The notes beneath the pieces were generated by a model. It searched no databases. It had not been told where the DNA came from and was given only the letters and a program-made list of their open reading frames with translations. Below are positions 6,020 through 61,491 of a stretch of DNA of 64,000 nucleotides, one piece after another (the first letter of the stretch is position 1; every line of letters starts with the position of its first letter). A program made the position numbers and the translations under genes. The DNA lies in assembly GCF_000422985.1 (NCBI RefSeq), contig NZ_AUHC01000005.1:1-64000 (forward strand). The letters run 5' to 3'. This DNA comes from Erythrobacter cryptus DSM 12079 (GTDB lineage: Bacteria; Pseudomonadota; Alphaproteobacteria; Sphingomonadales; Sphingomonadaceae).

Positions 6020-7284
6020 GCCCGCCGTGCTATCGCTCCCCCGATGCCAAGTCCACCCGCCTCGCTGCCGCCGCTGCGCCCTGCCTCCTTTTCGGCCGAC
6101 AAGGGCGCGCTTGTCGCCAGCCGTGCCGCGGGCAGCGCCCCTGCGACCACCACCCGGTCGCGCCCGGCGCGTTTGGCCTGATAGAGCGCGTTGTCGGCGC
6201 GGGCATAAAGATCGCCATAGGCCTCGCCCGGCCGCAGCGTGGCCACACCGAAGCTGGCGGTGAGCGCGATCTGCGCGCCCAAAGCCTCGACCGGGCGGGC
6301 GGCGAGCGCCGCGCGCAGCCGCTCGGCCAGATGGGCGGCCGGCGCCGCGGGGCAATCCCAGGCGATGAGGCCGAACTCCTCCCCGCCGATCCGCCCGGCA
6401 AGATCGGTGGGCCGGATCGATGCCGCCATGATGCTGCCAAAGGCGCGGATCACCGCATCGCCAGCAGGATGGCCAAGCGCATCATTGATCTGTTTGAAGT
6501 GGTCGATATCGGCAATCACCATGCTCACCGGCCGCCCCTCGGCCCGCGCCCGGGCGATGAGATCGCGGGCTTCCTCGTCAAAGCTGTCGCGCCGCAAAAG
6601 CCCGCTCAGCTCGTCCTTGCGCACCACCTGGCGCACCGCGCGGATCTGGTCGGAGATGGTGGCCGCCAGGATCGCCGCGGTCAGCACCAGGGTGAGGATC
6701 GCTGCGGTAAGCACCAGCACGGCATGGCCGGCGCTGTCGCGATAGGCCGCGGTTGACATCGGCCCGCCGAGCATGAGCACCCCGATCGGGCGCAGGAAGA
6801 ATTGTGCGGCAACGATGGCAAAGATCCACACAAGCAGCCGGTCAACCAGCTGGTGCGATCGGGCCTGGGCCATGATCTGCGTGCCCATCACCATCACGAG
6901 GCCGCAGCACAGGTTGACCGCCAGCAGACTGGCGCTGACATCGCGCCGGTGATCGGCAAGGCCCACCAGCACCACTGCAACCAGCCCTGCCCCCGCCCAC
7001 AGCCGCAGCGGCACCGGCTGGCCGAGCCGCTGGCACATGCTCGCCACCAGCGCGATCACCGAGGAGATCGAGAGCGCCGCCACCGCCATCTGCACGAGGC
7101 GATGGCCGGGATCGGGGCTGTAGTGATTGATGGCAAAGCTGGTGCCCAAAAGCAGCGCGGCGAGCACATAGCCGAGGATATAACGCAGCTGGCGTTCGCG
7201 CAGCCACAGCGCAAGGCCGCCGCCCGCGAAAATCAGCGACATGCCCGGATTGACCAATCCGACAATCTGATCGAACACGGCCAT
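6016..7284 (-). CDS. Membrane diguanylate cyclase
   Basis: A 422-residue protein with six or seven predicted membrane helices in residues 1-210, then a GGDEF domain. The active loop reads GGEEF (about residues 300-304), a catalytically competent form, and an RPTD inhibitory I-site lies five residues before it, so c-di-GMP feedback control is expected. ADIDHFKQINDALGH and the C-terminal ADNALYQAKRAGRDRV motif are intact. It makes cyclic di-GMP from two GTP. The membrane part is a generic integral sensor with no named ligand domain. It is the first gene of a two-gene unit with the M28 peptidase and is divergent from ettA. Confidence 0.93.
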   Translation of the reverse strand: MAVFDQIVGLVNPGMSLIFAGGGLALWLRERQLRYILGYVLAALLLGTSFAINHYSPDPGHRLVQMAVAALSISSVIALVASMCQRLGQPVPLRLWAGAGLVAVVLVGLADHRRDVSASLLAVNLCCGLVMVMGTQIMAQARSHQLVDRLLVWIFAIVAAQFFLRPIGVLMLGGPMSTAAYRDSAGHAVLVLTAAILTLVLTAAILAATISDQIRAVRQVVRKDELSGLLRRDSFDEEARDLIARARAEGRPVSMVIADIDHFKQINDALGHPAGDAVIRAFGSIMAASIRPTDLAGRIGGEEFGLIAWDCPAAPAAHLAERLRAALAARPVEALGAQIALTASFGVATLRPGEAYGDLYARADNALYQAKRAGRDRVVVAGALPAARLATSAPLSAEKEAGRSGGSEAGGLGIGGAIARRA

Positions 7285-7455: not shown

Positions 7456-9129
7456 ATGGCCGCGCAATATGCCTATGTGATGAAGGGCATGACCAAGACC
7501 TTCCCCGGCGCCAGCAAGCCGGTGCTCAACAACATCAACCTGCAGTTTTACCAGGGCGCCAAGATCGGGATTGTCGGCCCCAACGGCGCGGGCAAATCCA
7601 CGCTGATGAAGATCATGGCCGGGATCGACACCGATTTTTCGGGCGAGGCCTGGCCGGGCGAGAACATCACCGTGGGCTATCTGCCGCAGGAGCCCGAGCT
7701 TGATCCGAACAAGAACGTGCTCGAGAATGTCAAGGACGGGGCGCGTCACATCGCCGACATGGTCGATCGCTTCAACGAGATCAGCGCGCTGATGTGCGAG
7801 CCGGATGCCGATTTCGACACGCTGGCCGCCGAGATGGGCGAGCTCCAGGACAAGATCGATGCGGTCGATGGCTGGACGCTCGACAACCAGCTCGAAGTGG
7901 CGATGGAAGCGCTGCGCTGCCCGCCGTCCGATGCCAGCGTCGCCAATCTTTCGGGGGGGGAAAAGCGCCGCGTGGCGCTCACCCGGCTGCTGATCCAGAA
8001 GCCCTCGATCCTGCTGCTCGACGAGCCGACCAACCACCTTGATGCCGAGAGCGTCCAGTGGCTCGAAAACCACCTCAAGGAATATCCCGGCGCGGTGCTG
8101 ATGATCACCCACGACCGCTATTTCCTCGACAACGTGGTTGGCTGGATCCTCGAGCTCGACCGCGGCTCCTATTATCCCTACGAAGGCAACTATTCCACTT
8201 ACCTCGAAAAGAAGGCCAAGCGGCTCGAACAGGAGGCGCGCGAGGAATCCGGGCGGCAGAAGGCGCTCCAGCGCGAGCTCGAATGGATCCGCCAGACCCC
8301 GGCTGCGCGCCAGACCAAGTCCAAGGCGCGCATCCGCAAGTTCGAGCAGCTCCAGGAAGCCCAGAACGATCGCCGCCCGGGCAAGGCGCAGATCGTCATC
8401 CAGGTGCCCGAGCGGCTGGGTGGCAAGGTGATCGAGGCCAAGAACATCTCCAAGGCCTATGGCGACAAGCTGCTGTTTGAAAACCTCTCCTTCACCCTGC
8501 CCCCGGGCGGCATCGTGGGCGTGATCGGCCCCAACGGCGCGGGCAAATCAACCCTGTTCAAGATCATCACCGGGCAGGAGCAGCCCGACAGCGGCACGAT
8601 CGAGATCGGCGAGACAGTGCGCCTTGCCTATGTCGATCAGAGCCGCGATCATCTCGACCCGACGAAGAACGTGTGGGAGGAAATCTCCGACGGGCTCGAT
8701 TACATGAAGGTCAATGGCCACGACATGTCCACCCGCGCCTATGTTGGGGCCTTCAACTTCAAGGGGCCTGACCAGCAGAAGAATGTCGGCAAGCTCTCGG
8801 GCGGCGAACGCAACCGGGTGCATCTGGCCAAGATGCTCAAGCGCGGCGGCAATGTGCTGCTGCTCGACGAGCCGACCAACGATCTCGATGTCGAAACCCT
8901 CGCCGCGCTCGAGGATGCGATCGAGAACTTCGCCGGCTGCGCGGTGGTGATCAGCCACGACCGCTTCTTCCTCGATCGCCTTGCCACCCATATCCTCGCC
9001 TTCGAGGGCAATAGCCATGTCGAGTGGTTCGAAGGCAATTTCGAGGCCTATGAGGAGGACAAGCGCCGGCGCCTCGGCGATGCCGCCGACCGGCCGACCA
9101 GGCTCGCCTACAAGAAGCTGACGCGCTAG
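7456..9129 (+). CDS. ettA: Energy-dependent translational throttle protein EttA
   Basis: A 557-residue ABC-F ATPase, close to the 555 of the E. coli protein. Two ABC cassettes are complete: Walker A GPNGAGKST occurs twice (about residues 39-47 and 355-363), signatures are LSGGEKRRVAL and LSGGERNRVHL, and Walker B regions are LLLDEPTNHLD and LLLDEPTNDLD. The linker between them is the ribosome-contacting region of the family (EWIRQTPAARQTKSKARI). It has no membrane partner. EttA binds the ribosomal E site and gates the first peptide bond according to the ATP/ADP ratio. The ATG at 7456 has AAGGA just upstream and begins at the conserved QYAYVMKGMTKTF. Confidence 0.96.
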   Translation: MAAQYAYVMKGMTKTFPGASKPVLNNINLQFYQGAKIGIVGPNGAGKSTLMKIMAGIDTDFSGEAWPGENITVGYLPQEPELDPNKNVLENVKDGARHIADMVDRFNEISALMCEPDADFDTLAAEMGELQDKIDAVDGWTLDNQLEVAMEALRCPPSDASVANLSGGEKRRVALTRLLIQKPSILLLDEPTNHLDAESVQWLENHLKEYPGAVLMITHDRYFLDNVVGWILELDRGSYYPYEGNYSTYLEKKAKRLEQEAREESGRQKALQRELEWIRQTPAARQTKSKARIRKFEQLQEAQNDRRPGKAQIVIQVPERLGGKVIEAKNISKAYGDKLLFENLSFTLPPGGIVGVIGPNGAGKSTLFKIITGQEQPDSGTIEIGETVRLAYVDQSRDHLDPTKNVWEEISDGLDYMKVNGHDMSTRAYVGAFNFKGPDQQKNVGKLSGGERNRVHLAKMLKRGGNVLLLDEPTNDLDVETLAALEDAIENFAGCAVVISHDRFFLDRLATHILAFEGNSHVEWFEGNFEAYEEDKRRRLGDAADRPTRLAYKKLTR

Positions 9130-9219
9130 GCCGCAGGAAGGGTGTCCTTTACCCGCTGTTAATCAGCCCGCCTCCACCTTGCGCCGCATAGACAAGGGGT
9201 CGCAAGAAGGAAGCGGGGC

Positions 9220-55558: not shown

Positions 55559-55956
55559 TCATCGGCCTCGGCAACGACCTGTGCAATATCGAGCGCATCG
55601 CCCGCTCGCTCGAACGCTATGGCGAGCGCTTTGAAAACCGCGTCTTCACGCCCGTTGAAATCGCCAAGGCGCGGCGCCGCCCCTTCACCATCGCCGGCAC
55701 CTATGCCAAGCGCTTTGCTGCCAAGGAGGCCTTCAGCAAGGCGGTGGGCACGGGCTTCCGGCGCGGCGTCTTCATGAAGGATATCGGCGTCATCAACGCC
55801 CCCTCGGGCGCGCCGACCCTCGCGCTGACCGGCGGCGCGGCAAAGCGGCTTGAAGAATTGACGCCAAAGGGCCATGAGGCGCGCATCCATCTCACCCTTA
55901 CCGATGATCATCCCTGGGCCCAGGCCTTCGTGATCATCGAGGCAATCCCCCTGTGA
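55555..55956 (+). CDS. acpS: Holo-[acyl-carrier-protein] synthase
   Basis: A 133-residue phosphopantetheinyl transferase. [20 protein letters not shown] gives the catalytic aspartate, and [18 protein letters not shown] the second conserved glutamate. It loads the prosthetic group onto acyl carrier protein. Start is GTG 55555, overlapping the previous ORF stop. Its stop overlaps the lepB GTG. Confidence 0.96.
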
Positions 55957-56840
55957 TCGGCCCCTTCATGGCAAGCACAAAAACCACTTCCGCTCAGGCC
56001 CAGCCCGAAAAGATCAACTGGATCGCGGAAATCCGCGGCCTGGCCTTGATGCTGCTTGCCGTTCTGGCCTTCCACAGCCTGGTGGCCAAGCCCTTCTACA
56101 TCCCCTCGACCTCAATGATGCCGACCTTGTGGGTGGGCGACCGGCTGGTGGTGAGCAAATATCCCTATGGCTGGTCATGGGCCTCGGCGAGCTTCCACCT
56201 CTTGCCGCGCGGCAGCTGGCGGGTGTGGCCCAAGACGCCCGAATATGGCGATATCGTCATCCCCGTGCACCCCTTGCGCGACGAGGACTACATCAAGCGC
56301 GTGGTGGCACTGCCGGGCGATACCATCGAGGTGCGCGGCGGGCAGATCATCCTCAACGGCAAGCCGATCAAGCGCGAGGTGGTGCCCCCGGTGCGCCTGC
56401 CCTTCGAGCCTGATCTGATCTGCCGCGATGGCCCGTGCCTTGCGAGCTTCGAGGCCTATCGCGAGACCGGGCCGGACGGGCGCGACTATTTCGCCCCGCC
56501 CACCTGGCGCGAAACCCTGCCCAATGGCGCGACCTATCTGACCATCGATTTCATCGATCAGCCGCTCGATGATTTCGGCCCCTACACTGTGCCCAAGGAC
56601 AGCGTCTTCGTGATGGGCGACAATCGCGACCAGAGCGCCGACAGCCGCGCCCCGGCCGAGGAAAACGGGCTGGGTGGCGGGGTGCCGATGGCCAATATCG
56701 GCGGGCGCGCGGAGTTCATCACCTTCAGCCTCGATGGCTCGACCACCTGGAACCCGGCGACCTGGCTTTCGAGCCTGCGGCCCGGCCGCGCCTGGACCAG
56801 CCTGCGCCCGCCGCTGGTGGAAGGCGCGGCCAAGCACTAG
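55953..56840 (+). CDS. lepB: Signal peptidase I
   Basis: A 295-residue membrane protease. The catalytic serine is in [19 protein letters not shown], the lysine in [14 protein letters not shown], and the C-terminal box is [13 protein letters not shown]. One N-terminal anchor ([20 protein letters not shown]). It removes signal peptides in the periplasm, including the ones predicted here. Start is GTG 55953 (overlap with acpS) or ATG 55968 (MASTKTTS). Confidence 0.95.
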
Positions 56841-58002: not shown

Positions 58003-58482
58003 ATGGACGCACTGATCCACGAGGATGCGCGCGGCTTTGCTGCGGCGCTTGCGGATGGCGGGGTGCTGCTCGGCCTTGACCTCGGTACGCGGACCATCGG
58101 CACCGCGCTGTGCGATGCCGGCTGGCGCTTTGCCACCAATCACACCACCCTTCCCCGCAGCAAGTGGGGAAAGGACCGCGAGGCGCTTGCCGCGTTGATC
58201 ACGGCACGAGCGGTCAGGGGCATCGTGCTCGGCCTGCCGCGCAACATGGACGGTTCGGAAGGCCCGCGCGCCCAGGCCAGCCGCGCCTATGCCCGCAACC
58301 TTGCCGCCGCCTTCGGCCTGCCGATCCTGCTCTGGGACGAGCGCTGGTCAACCCAGGCAGCCGAAGCGGCGATGATCGATCAGGATATGAGCCGGGCCAA
58401 GCGCGCGCGCGCGATCGATGCCCATGCCGCTGCGGTGATCCTGCAAGGGGCGATCGACCGGCTCGCCGGCGGCGTGCTCTAA
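58003..58482 (+). CDS. ruvX: Holliday junction resolvase-like protein YqgF/RuvX
   Basis: A 159-residue RNase H-fold protein. LLGLDLGTRTIGTALCD holds the first catalytic aspartate and ILLWDERWSTQAAEAAMID the second region; IVLGLPRNMDGSEGPRAQA is the family core. In E. coli YqgF is involved in 16S rRNA 5' processing. Its stop overlaps the stop of the next convergent gene. Confidence 0.93.
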   Translation: MDALIHEDARGFAAALADGGVLLGLDLGTRTIGTALCDAGWRFATNHTTLPRSKWGKDREALAALITARAVRGIVLGLPRNMDGSEGPRAQASRAYARNLAAAFGLPILLWDERWSTQAAEAAMIDQDMSRAKRARAIDAHAAAVILQGAIDRLAGGVL

Positions 58483-59396
58483 CCTTCCCGTGCCGATAGC
58501 ATCCGGCGCCGTGCCCGGGCGGCGCCGGCCACCATGCGGCTACCCGAAAGCTCCGCCGCGCGCCAGATCGCCTCGGCAGCTTCGGCATCGGCGGCGATTT
58601 CCGCCCGCGCCGCAAAGCTGGCGAGGCGCAGCCGATCGCTGGGATGATGCGCGCCGACCCATGCGGCATAGTCGAGCGCCGCATCCGTCCCGCTCGCCAC
58701 CGCCACCTTCAGCAGCACCTCCTGCACATTGGGGTTGAGGAGCCGCGCCAGCGTGCCGCGCTCCAGATCAAAGCCATACTGATCGAACCAGGCCTGGGCC
58801 GGATCCACCGCAATGAGGTTGAGCGAGACCGAGAGGCTTTCGGGCGGGTGCTGGCAATGCACATCGACATGGCGGCGATAGAGCATGAGCTTGCCCGGGG
58901 TGAGCGCGCTGCGCTCGACGAAACGCAGGCCTGCACCCTCGCCCGTGTAGCCGGCAAGCGCCTGATAATCTTCCTCGTAATAGTCGCTGACATAGCCCGG
59001 GCCGCAATAACCCACGGTGAGAAAATCGAAATTGTGGTCATGCGCAATGCCATAGACAAAGCTTTGCGGCCCGCTTGCATGAAAGGCATGGTCGTGCGGC
59101 GCGGGCCAAATCGCCGCGCGCAGGAAGGCGGCTCCCGGGCGGCTCAAGCGCGGGCGGCTGAGCATGAGCGCCTGCACCCCATAGGCGCTGTCAATCAGCG
59201 CGCCAGTGCGACCGGCCAGTTGATCGACCAGCAATTCGCCGAGGAAGTCGCGGTTGTTAGCCAGCCGCCGCATCCAATCGGCCGCTTCGCGGGTGCTGGC
59301 CGGATCGTCGGCCAGGAAGGCAATGTCCTCGAGCGCTGCGACGCATTCGGCAAGCGTGCAGCTCTCCTCATGAGGATTGTCGATCACCAGCGGCAT
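58479..59396 (-). CDS. Uncharacterised protein C of a three-gene unit: cupin-like core and helical tail
   Basis: A 305-residue soluble protein. The middle (about residues 85-200) has a metal-ligand-like pattern: YGIAHDHNFDFLTVGYCGPG, a tyrosine/glutamate cluster (SDYYEEDYQALAGY), then GKLMLYRRHVDVHCQHPPES and LSVSLNLIAVDP. This fits a cupin-like beta-barrel with two or three histidines, judged by eye only. The last 80 residues are helical and repeat-like (EVLLKVAVASGTDAALDYAA). I do not recognise the family by name. Start ATG 59396 shares one base with the stop of the preceding gene, so they are coupled. Convergent with ruvX. Confidence 0.6.
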   Translation of the reverse strand: MPLVIDNPHEESCTLAECVAALEDIAFLADDPASTREAADWMRRLANNRDFLGELLVDQLAGRTGALIDSAYGVQALMLSRPRLSRPGAAFLRAAIWPAPHDHAFHASGPQSFVYGIAHDHNFDFLTVGYCGPGYVSDYYEEDYQALAGYTGEGAGLRFVERSALTPGKLMLYRRHVDVHCQHPPESLSVSLNLIAVDPAQAWFDQYGFDLERGTLARLLNPNVQEVLLKVAVASGTDAALDYAAWVGAHHPSDRLRLASFAARAEIAADAEAAEAIWRAAELSGSRMVAGAARARRRMLSAREG

Positions 59397-60337
59397 CAGG
59401 CTGCCTCGGTCAATAGTGCGGCCATCTCGGGCCGACCCGCGCACAGCCGCGCCGTCAGGCCGCGCGCCTCAGCCGCAAGCGGATCGGCAGGATCGCCCGC
59501 CAGCGCGCCGAGGAGTTTGAGACCTTCCGCCGCATCGAGCGCCAGCGCCTGGCGCAGCGCTTCCCAGCGCAGATCGCGCGCTGCCGCCTGGTCGCGTACC
59601 AGCCGCGCCATGTGCAAGAGCGCCGGGCGATGGCCAAGTGCGCCGAGCACGTCCAGCGCCATGAGCTTCTGGCTGGTGCGCTTGCACCCGCTCACTCGCC
59701 GCAGCACGCGCCCATCAGCGCAGGCGACCAGCGCCCCTTCAGCAGGCGTATCGGGCACGCGGATCAGCTGCAGGAGCACAAGCGGGCGGGTGACGGCGAC
59801 GATCCGGCGGGCCTCGCCCACCCCGCGGCGCGCGAGCTTAACGCCTGGGTTGAGCGCAATTTCGGCACTCATCAGGCTTGCGGGCGCCCGCTGATAGCAG
59901 ATCGCCGCGCCTTCGCCGGCCAGCACCACTTCGTGCACCTCGCCATCCTCGAAGAGCACGGCCTCAGGCACAGCGCTGGCCCGGGGAGCGTGGACGACAA
60001 GGCCCAGCACCGCGCCGGCGTGAGCGGCAAGTTCGAGCCGGACGAGGCCCTCGGCGCTGCGGTGGCCAAGCGCGGGCAAGGCCAGCGGCTCGGCCCTCAA
60101 GGCGGCGAACAGCGGCTGCAACAGGCTTGCAAGCAGGGCTTGGCCCGCCTGTGCATCGGCGAAAAGGCGAGCGAGCACCGGGCACTGCTCCAGCCCCGCA
60201 CCCCCGGCATGGCGCGCCAGTTCCGCGGTGATCGCGCCCACCTCGCTCTGCGCGCGCCATGTGGCGAGCGCCGCCTCGGTCAGCGGCTGGTCTGGCCCCT
60301 GCGCGCGCAGCCGGGCGAGCGCAGGATCAACCCGCAT
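59396..60337 (-). CDS. Uncharacterised protein B of the three-gene unit: helical tail, degenerate cupin-like core
   Basis: A 313-residue soluble protein. The middle third (DGEVHEVVLAGEGAAICYQR, MSAEIALNPGVKLARRG, then RPLVLLQLIRV) lines up in order with the cupin-like part of protein C, but lacks its histidines. The C-terminal third is helical and looks like HEAT-type repeats (MALDVLGALGHRPALLHMAR, EALRQALALDAAEGLKLLGA). The start ATG 60337 (MRVDPALARLRA) is 7 nt behind the peptide's stop. No signal peptide or membrane helix. Function unknown. Confidence 0.6.
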   Translation of the reverse strand: MRVDPALARLRAQGPDQPLTEAALATWRAQSEVGAITAELARHAGGAGLEQCPVLARLFADAQAGQALLASLLQPLFAALRAEPLALPALGHRSAEGLVRLELAAHAGAVLGLVVHAPRASAVPEAVLFEDGEVHEVVLAGEGAAICYQRAPASLMSAEIALNPGVKLARRGVGEARRIVAVTRPLVLLQLIRVPDTPAEGALVACADGRVLRRVSGCKRTSQKLMALDVLGALGHRPALLHMARLVRDQAAARDLRWEALRQALALDAAEGLKLLGALAGDPADPLAAEARGLTARLCAGRPEMAALLTEAA

Positions 60338-60344
60338 CGCGCGC

Positions 60345-60485
60345 TCACTTGGGCAGGATCTCGTAGAGATAGACCATGATCTCGAAGACCCGGTCGTCAA
60401 CCTGGCCGCCGGCCTCGATCACCGCGCCGAACAGCGCGGCGGCATCATCGAGCAGCGGGATCTCGTTGAGTTCGATTCTGGGCAT
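60345..60485 (-). CDS. 46-residue peptide, first gene of the three-gene unit
   Basis: A small acidic peptide: PRIELNEIPLLDDAAALFG at the start, then VDDRVFEIMVYLYEILPK at the end. A clear ribosome site (AAGGGGAA) lies ahead of the ATG at 60485. The next gene begins 7 nt after its stop. It has an amphipathic pattern but no signal, no Cys, and no recognised domain. It could be a precursor of a modified peptide, or a small partner protein of the two larger ones. Below normal ORF cutoffs. Confidence 0.5.
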   Translation of the reverse strand: MPRIELNEIPLLDDAAALFGAVIEAGGQVDDRVFEIMVYLYEILPK

Positions 60486-60617: not shown

Positions 60618-61100
60618 ATGACCACGCCTGCTGCCCGTTTCGATGCGCGCACCGCCTCGCAATGGTTCTTCCGCCATGGCCATACCGGTTGGCTCGGCCT
60701 CAGGTTCACCGATCAGGGGGACAACTGGGTCGAGCTGGAACTGCCTTGGCGCGCCGATCTCATCGGCGATCCCGGCCGCGAGGTGCTCGCCTCTGGCCCG
60801 ATCATCAGCCTCATGGACATGGCCAGCGGCATGGCGATCTGGCAGACCCGCGGCACTTTTGCCCCGGTGGCAACGCTCGATCTTAGGGTGGATTACCAGC
60901 GCCCGGCGCGCCCCCGGGCGAGCGTCAGGGGAAGGGTCGAATGCTATCGCACCACCCGCTCGGCCGCCTTCGTGCGCGGCATTGCCTATGATGCCGACCC
61001 GGCCGATCCGGTCGCCCATGTGGCCGGCTGCTTCATGACCATTGCCGCCGATCCGCGCCAGGAGGTGCCCGCACTCAAGGGAGCTGTTGGCCTTGGCTGA
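60618..61100 (+). CDS. PaaI-type hot-dog thioesterase
   Basis: A 160-residue hot-dog protein: WFFRHGHTGWLGLRFTDQGD, then PIISLMDMASGMAIWQTRGT (the central helix with aspartate) and VATLDLRVDYQRPARPRASV. Likely acyl-CoA thioesterase; substrate unknown. Start is ATG 60618, the first in-frame start after the divergent peptide gene; the open frame goes on upstream through other genes. It is followed by a second hot-dog gene with overlap. Confidence 0.85.
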   Translation: MTTPAARFDARTASQWFFRHGHTGWLGLRFTDQGDNWVELELPWRADLIGDPGREVLASGPIISLMDMASGMAIWQTRGTFAPVATLDLRVDYQRPARPRASVRGRVECYRTTRSAAFVRGIAYDADPADPVAHVAGCFMTIAADPRQEVPALKGAVGLG

Positions 61101-61491
61101 CACGATCATCGAACTGCCCGCCTATGCCCGCTCGCTCGGGATCAAACTCACTGGCGAGGAAGAGGCGGGGATGCCGGTGCTGCGGCTTGATTTTGGAGAA
61201 ATGGTCGAGGGCCGCCCCCGGCACTTCCACGGCGGGGCGACCGCCGGGCTGCTCGAGACCGCTGGCTATGCCGCGCTGCGCACCGCGCTGGTGGCGGCCG
61301 GGCGCGATCCGGTGATGAAGCCGATCAACATCACGGTGCAATATCTCTCCGCAGGCCGGTCGCAGGCGAGCCATGCGGTGGGCCGCATCACCCGCCTCGG
61401 GCGGCGCAACGCCAATATCGCGGTCGAGGCCTGGCAGGATGATCGCAGCCGCCCGATCGCCACCGCGGTGATGAACATCCTGATGGTCTAA
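61093..61491 (+). CDS. PaaI-type hot-dog thioesterase, second copy
   Basis: A protein of about 132 residues with VEGRPRHFHGGATAGLLETA, the usual HGG-containing central helix of PaaI-type thioesterases, and KPINITVQYLSAGRSQ. Start choice: TTG 61093 has AAGGGAG 9 nt upstream and overlaps the previous stop by 8 nt; an ATG at 61042 would overlap by 59 nt. The two genes are probably a heterodimer or paralogous pair, co-translated. Confidence 0.78.
   Translation: MADTIIELPAYARSLGIKLTGEEEAGMPVLRLDFGEMVEGRPRHFHGGATAGLLETAGYAALRTALVAAGRDPVMKPINITVQYLSAGRSQASHAVGRITRLGRRNANIAVEAWQDDRSRPIATAVMNILMV

Follow-up and report, generated by a model that had tools for sequence, protein, structure and literature searches.

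A peptide gene and two predicted cupin-HEAT proteins in sphingomonads: a candidate RiPP-type modification system with a thiol-dioxygenase-like fold

Which function could unite a 46-residue peptide and two large proteins whose genes follow one another almost without interruption? Analysis of the window, the 64,000-nucleotide stretch of DNA from Erythrobacter cryptus DSM 12079 examined here (contig NZ_AUHC01000005.1, positions 1 to 64,000), placed all three genes on the minus strand, an orientation that the preliminary description of this DNA had not given:

P1, 60345 to 60485 (stop codon included), minus strand: gene of the 46-residue peptide and candidate precursor, an open reading frame whose orthologues lie 5' of P2 at 29 of the 30 genus loci.
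P2, 59396 to 60337, minus strand: gene of a 313-residue protein, by AlphaFold model and fold search a cupin with a degenerate metal site and HEAT-like helices.
P3, 58479 to 59396, minus strand: gene of a 305-residue protein, by AlphaFold model and fold search a cupin of thiol-dioxygenase fold with HEAT-like helices.

The three reading frames were all present as that description had stated, and so was their tight coupling: 7 nucleotides separate the end of P1 (60345) from the start of P2 (60337), while the TGA of P2 and the ATG of P3 share one base at 59396 (TGATG). The AlphaFold models of P2 and P3 (mean pLDDT 96.2 and 96.0, respectively) likewise contain the middle beta part and helical C-terminus that had been read from the sequence, and N-terminal helices besides. 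The same description had proposed a peptide-modification or peptide-sensing system; comparative evidence supports this and favours modification over sensing because of the three-histidine signature of P3, the paralogy of P2 and P3, peptides with a recurring motif, tandem precursors and exporters. P1 is thus likely to serve as a precursor of RiPP type, modified by an enzyme in which P2 and P3 come together as a cupin-HEAT heteromer.

The searches made turned up no homologue that had already been named and assigned a clear role. Pfam and NCBIfam held no model covering P1 and no thiol-dioxygenase or other enzyme family matching P3, and this missing sequence match to any enzyme family counts against the modification reading. 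Across Pfam, NCBIfam, PADLOC and PHROGs, no family was obtained for P1, P2 or P3, matches to DUF693 and a dehydrogenase (E 0.18) were discarded as noise, and no description of the trio was found in the open-access literature searched. A search of the genome for a second P1 copy returned none that was convincing (second match E 0.6).

In the predicted structure of P3, a cupin of thiol-dioxygenase fold precedes HEAT-like helices. Residues 11-222 share the fold of cysteine, 3-mercaptopropionate and mercaptosuccinate dioxygenases, plant cysteine oxidases and ADO, with Z up to 13.5: this value was reached against 4qma (rmsd 3.4, 162 aligned), 8vni (rmsd 3.6, 168 aligned) and 4tlf, and 8vni was also the top Foldseek match (E 1e-7). 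The parts of P3 that matter for the argument are the following:

59034 to 59042, minus strand: His119-Asp120-His121, candidate metal ligands; His at both positions in 106/106 family sequences, 17/17 outside the class.
58857 to 58859, minus strand: His180, candidate third metal ligand; His in 105/106, and in 17/17 outside the class.
58482 to 58727, minus strand: C-terminal helices, residues 224-305, HEAT-like in the model; HEAT_2 is matched in relatives.

Pfam HEAT_2 matches 16 of the 106 P3 family members, the copy in the window not being among them. In the 17 sequences from outside the class, R93, W97, Q182 and S191 were kept together with the three histidines. The candidate site, an HxH pair and a later histidine in the sequence, resembles the metal site of thiol dioxygenases. 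In cysteine dioxygenase a Ser-His-Tyr set is present, which is probably not kept in P3, where S191-x-N193 is found. A search of the P3 profile against PDB sequences returned no thiol dioxygenase chain, so the link between P3 and these enzymes rests on predicted structure; and because no sequence library places P3 among them, we treat it as a relative in fold and not as a member of the family. P3 further differs from thiol dioxygenases in its C-terminal HEAT-like part, its paralogous partner and the adjacent peptide gene, the product of which has no cysteine in the window.

For P2, the model delimits two parts:

59693 to 60064, minus strand: beta (cupin) part, residues 92-215, from the secondary structure of the model.
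59402 to 59683, minus strand: C-terminal helices, residues 219-312, HEAT/alphaRep-like in the model and by an alphaRep profile match.

The P2 profile matched designed alphaRep HEAT repeats with E 7e-8. In fold comparisons, P2 reached Z 11.8 over 100 residues with ectoine synthase and Z 10.0-10.6 over 148-161 residues with chains of ADO, mercaptosuccinate dioxygenase, plant cysteine oxidase and CDO; since cupins are common, the fold alone does not fix the family of P2. The profiles of P2 and P3 align over 260 columns (probability 93.9, E 1.6e-7), and on this ground the two proteins are paralogues. An HxH within the cupin part was found in 9 of 97 P2 rows and the best-kept histidine column held His in 52 of 97; as far as these aligned sequences go, a conserved counterpart of the P3 histidine site is absent from P2.

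P1 is a real, constrained gene under purifying selection, because its pooled dN/dS over 18 close pairs is 0.177, beside 0.267 for P2 and 0.126 for P3. Two segments of the peptide were delimited, with a leader/core boundary that we infer:

60426 to 60485, minus strand: residues 1-20, candidate leader, with IELNEIPLL at residues 4-12; a recurring motif in the automatically picked peptides.
60348 to 60398, minus strand: residues 30-46, hydrophobic C-terminal segment and candidate core; C-terminal halves are rich in Val and Ile, and similarity lies below that of the leader.

For comparison, small open reading frames were picked automatically by ribosome-binding site and position upstream of P2, yielding 130 distinct peptides, among which wrong-frame picks are retained (by eye, those at L003, L029, L141, L147, L151, L168 and L140). 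An N-terminal motif of the form hydrophobic-acidic-hydrophobic-x-x-hydrophobic-P/A-x-hydrophobic occurred in 109 of the 130, where 500 shuffles gave 2.6 on average and 8 at most; because the expression was devised with the peptides in view and many of these are related, the count describes the set and is not an independent test. In the 109 motif peptides, Val and Ile together accounted for 25% of residues in the C-terminal half and for 10.5% in the N-terminal half. Among 22 distant representatives, similarity was 0.43 in the leader and 0.25 in the tail (0.20 and 0.145 with shuffled partners), values that carry a bias from anchoring the peptides on a motif chosen post hoc. Cysteine was present in 16 of the 130 peptides; P1 of the window has none, and thiol oxidation was thus excluded as the chemistry acting on it.

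The preliminary description had left the distribution of the trio, and the position of the peptide within it, to comparison with other genomes. This comparison shows that the trio is no chance arrangement. Of 100 relatives searched, 33 encoded P3, and every one of these belonged to the genus of the window (33 of its 61 genomes). At 29 of the 30 genus loci fetched, all three genes were present in the order P1, P2, P3, the sole exception, L022, being cut by a contig end; one of the 29 complete loci, L003, has P2 split over two frames. The junction of P2 and P3 in these 29 loci was a one-base overlap (17 loci), an overlap of 10-16 bases (10) or a gap of 12-13 bases (2). A profile search matched 98 of 296 genomes of the taxonomic order, all within the family of the window. 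The arrangement of a short precursor-like gene beside modification-type genes was seen directly in the 29 genus loci and taken from automatic picks in those farther away.

P2 was also found in 182 of the 189 fetched loci with a P3 match, a number that includes duplicates, since some genomes came in from both collections used and in repeated searches. The seven others comprise four loci truncated at contig ends (L022, L071, L080 and L150), two remnants (L175 and L176) and a Vibrio plasmid, on which the gene upstream of P3 is too diverged for the P2 model; elsewhere the pair stays linked. Alignments A1 and A2 covered 24 of the first 30 loci (left out: L003, L005, L010, L022, L025 and L030) and A3 covered 22, omitting also L009 and L012, the latter with an internal stop in the frame used. 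A4 held 106 of 111 selected rows (left out: L012, L080, L081, L106 and L109), A5 was A4 minus two plasmid rows, and A6 held 97 of 123 listed rows.

The remnants belong to two genus genomes in which P3 has been reduced to its last 37 model positions, flanked by ruvX and the first thioesterase gene:

L175, 2469 to 2621, and L176, 2828 to 2980: deletion remnants of P3 (3' end only) between ruvX and the thioesterases.

As only the 3' end of P3 is left there, the trio can evidently be lost. In the window, ruvX, a DUF3089 gene and a Peptidase_S26 gene lie past P3, and two 4HBT thioesterase genes followed by a penicillin-binding protein gene lie past P1. The thioesterase genes (60618-61491) are divergent from P1. 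The earlier statement that no transporter or protease sits beside the trio was borne out for the adjacent genes; the third gene from P3, at 55953-56840, does however encode a Peptidase_S26 (signal peptidase). Two genomes from which the trio has disappeared retain this gene at its position, and it is therefore not specific to the trio.

The conserved surroundings bear on the main rival explanation, according to which P1 would be a small subunit that stays bound to, or a regulator of, a dioxygenase made up of P2 and P3 whose substrate is a small molecule, for instance a thiol or an acyl compound. P3 has the fold of small-thiol dioxygenases, and among the 117 loci that exceed 8 kb, 90 have the thioesterase pair next to the trio. 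Neither an exporter nor a dedicated peptidase was found beside the trio in the window or the conserved sphingomonad neighbourhood, which suits a subunit and speaks against the modification reading. In RiPP pathways, a linked exporter or leader peptidase is common and not universal. Within the genus, P1 is moreover conserved over its whole length, with a C-terminal part as conserved as the leader, unlike a fast-changing bacteriocin. Against the subunit explanation, the C-terminal part of P1 diverges strongly between genera, exporters occur in relatives and several different peptides are encoded per locus at L220 and on the Alteromonas plasmid. The thioesterases, too, remain beside ruvX in genomes without the trio; with ruvX and both thioesterases persisting around the P3 remnants, the neighbourhood is not specific to the trio and a functional link to the thioesterases was rejected. 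Overall, we consider a subunit or regulator improbable, if still the most serious competitor.

Beyond the family, the P2-P3 pair was found in another order of the class in 3 of 96 genomes of one family; upstream of the pair, two of these encode a peptide whose C-terminal part differs, and the third locus runs off its contig. Outside the class, a phylum sample of 398 genomes contained P3 in 2; in the two families concerned it was then found in 6 of 149 genomes of one and 6 of 147 of the other, first matches included. Plasmid-borne P3 matches were obtained in Alteromonas stellipolaris (40.5% identity, 84% covered) and Vibrio sp. ED002 (23.6%, 56%). In a FastTree phylogeny of P3 (90 of 121 sequences), L220 and L188 from outside the class paired (0.98) and grouped with 67 sphingomonad sequences (0.95), two more sphingomonad sequences lying outside that group. 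This nesting suggests horizontal transfer.

Peptides of these distant loci support the modification reading. L220 encodes three tandem peptides sharing an IPxLDxDV-like N-terminal part, with C-terminal parts that are similar in two and different in one, and the two peptides of the Alteromonas plasmid have LKNE near the start in common and diverge thereafter. L229/L230 carry a peptide with what we take to be a GG-type leader, and a similar one, presumably of the same type, is present in L140. As to whether the peptide gene is always in first place, a check that the preliminary description had suggested, it was so in the 29 complete genus loci; outside the class, no convincing upstream precursor was seen at L189, L221, L223 and the first of two L226 copies, which also weighs against the modification reading. 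A Pfam exporter scan, which outside the class covered L188, L220, L221, L225 and L226, located HlyD, MacB or ABC-transporter genes adjoining P2-P3 in all five; these are four records, because L225 and L226 are one genome. That genome has three P3 copies in about 14 kb, with MacB, HlyD and ABC genes among them. At L203, a pump-like gene pair was noticed upstream by eye.

Adjoining exporters, together with the small and hydrophobic nature of the peptide, would also suit an unmodified secreted signal with P2-P3 as its sensor or carrier. We give this explanation only a slight chance, as P3 keeps an enzyme-like histidine set and neither membrane nor DNA-binding domains were detected in P2 or P3 with Pfam, NCBIfam and the AlphaFold models. 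A toxin-antitoxin or phage-defence unit, for which the tight gene coupling, the plasmid copies and the patchy distribution with losses could be cited, appears more remote still: PADLOC matched none of eight proteins scanned, the sole PHROG match was a weak one of unknown function for the Alteromonas P3, phage records gave no match at E 0.01 and the chromosomal place is fixed in most sphingomonad loci.

For a precursor processed by P2 and P3, the following mechanism can be envisaged. The N-terminal segment of P1 (IELNEIPLL) would serve as recognition leader, bound probably by P2 or a HEAT surface, and the hydrophobic C-terminal segment would be the part that is changed, offered to the metal site of P3. 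P3 itself would be a cupin that depends on a metal at its three histidines and probably uses oxygen; P2 would pair with it and assist in holding the peptide, and the HEAT helices of the two proteins would act as scaffold. Oxidation would then concern non-thiol side chains, our guess being hydroxylation, desaturation or a cross-link, and the product would probably be secreted in those relatives that have exporters. We infer the modification of P1, the use of metal and oxygen and the P2-P3 complex from the comparisons above.

Among known systems, the MNIO (DUF692) RiPP systems, of which methanobactin is an example, differ in their enzyme: P2 and P3 are predicted cupin-HEAT proteins without the MNIO barrel, and no MNIO match was obtained in Pfam/NCBIfam or in the models. 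In organization they are alike: there too, the gene of a short precursor neighbours those of a metal oxygenase and a partner protein, as in the pbs cluster (PMC12257519). The nearest precedent in the literature searched is PbsQ, a cupin-like enzyme for which hydroxylation of an ornithine in a RiPP precursor has been reported, so that a cupin-fold protein acts on a residue of a ribosomal peptide there as well (PMC12257519). PbsQ is, however, described as related to a JmjC-domain protein and belongs to a multi-enzyme cluster, and neither a HEAT part nor a paralogous partner is mentioned in the passages on it that were consulted (PMC12257519).

If the proposed function is correct, P2-P3 would represent a type of peptide-modifying enzyme unnamed in Pfam and NCBIfam, in which the thiol-dioxygenase fold has been turned to thiol-free peptide chemistry, and precursors with very different cores would be available for substrate-range tests. 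The sphingomonad version, located mostly at one chromosomal place and without exporter, poses a separate question, namely the role of such a peptide within the cell or outside it. In its widest form, the proposal is of a new RiPP class across Pseudomonadota, with a paralogous cupin-HEAT heteromer of thiol-dioxygenase fold that would oxidize hydrophobic cores at non-thiol positions, giving exported bacteriocin- or signal-like products in some bacteria and a conserved product without exporter in sphingomonads; we see the chances of this wider proposal as evenly balanced.

A few further arrangements were observed. On the Vibrio plasmid (L189), a short P2-P3-like pair lies near a Tn3 transposase and annotated restriction-modification genes, and a small open reading frame overlaps the 3' end of P3, so that the peptide may there follow the enzymes instead of preceding them. 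Two family genomes (L158/L159 and L170/L171) have a second, distant P2-P3 copy elsewhere, by eye next to yidC/engB-like genes. At L222, candidate precursors at 9002-9193 and 6710-6841 stand ahead of two tandem P2-P3 pairs and contain internal repeats (FIFAARK/FIFAAQR and MPPQNQ/LPPQDQ) like those of multi-core precursors.
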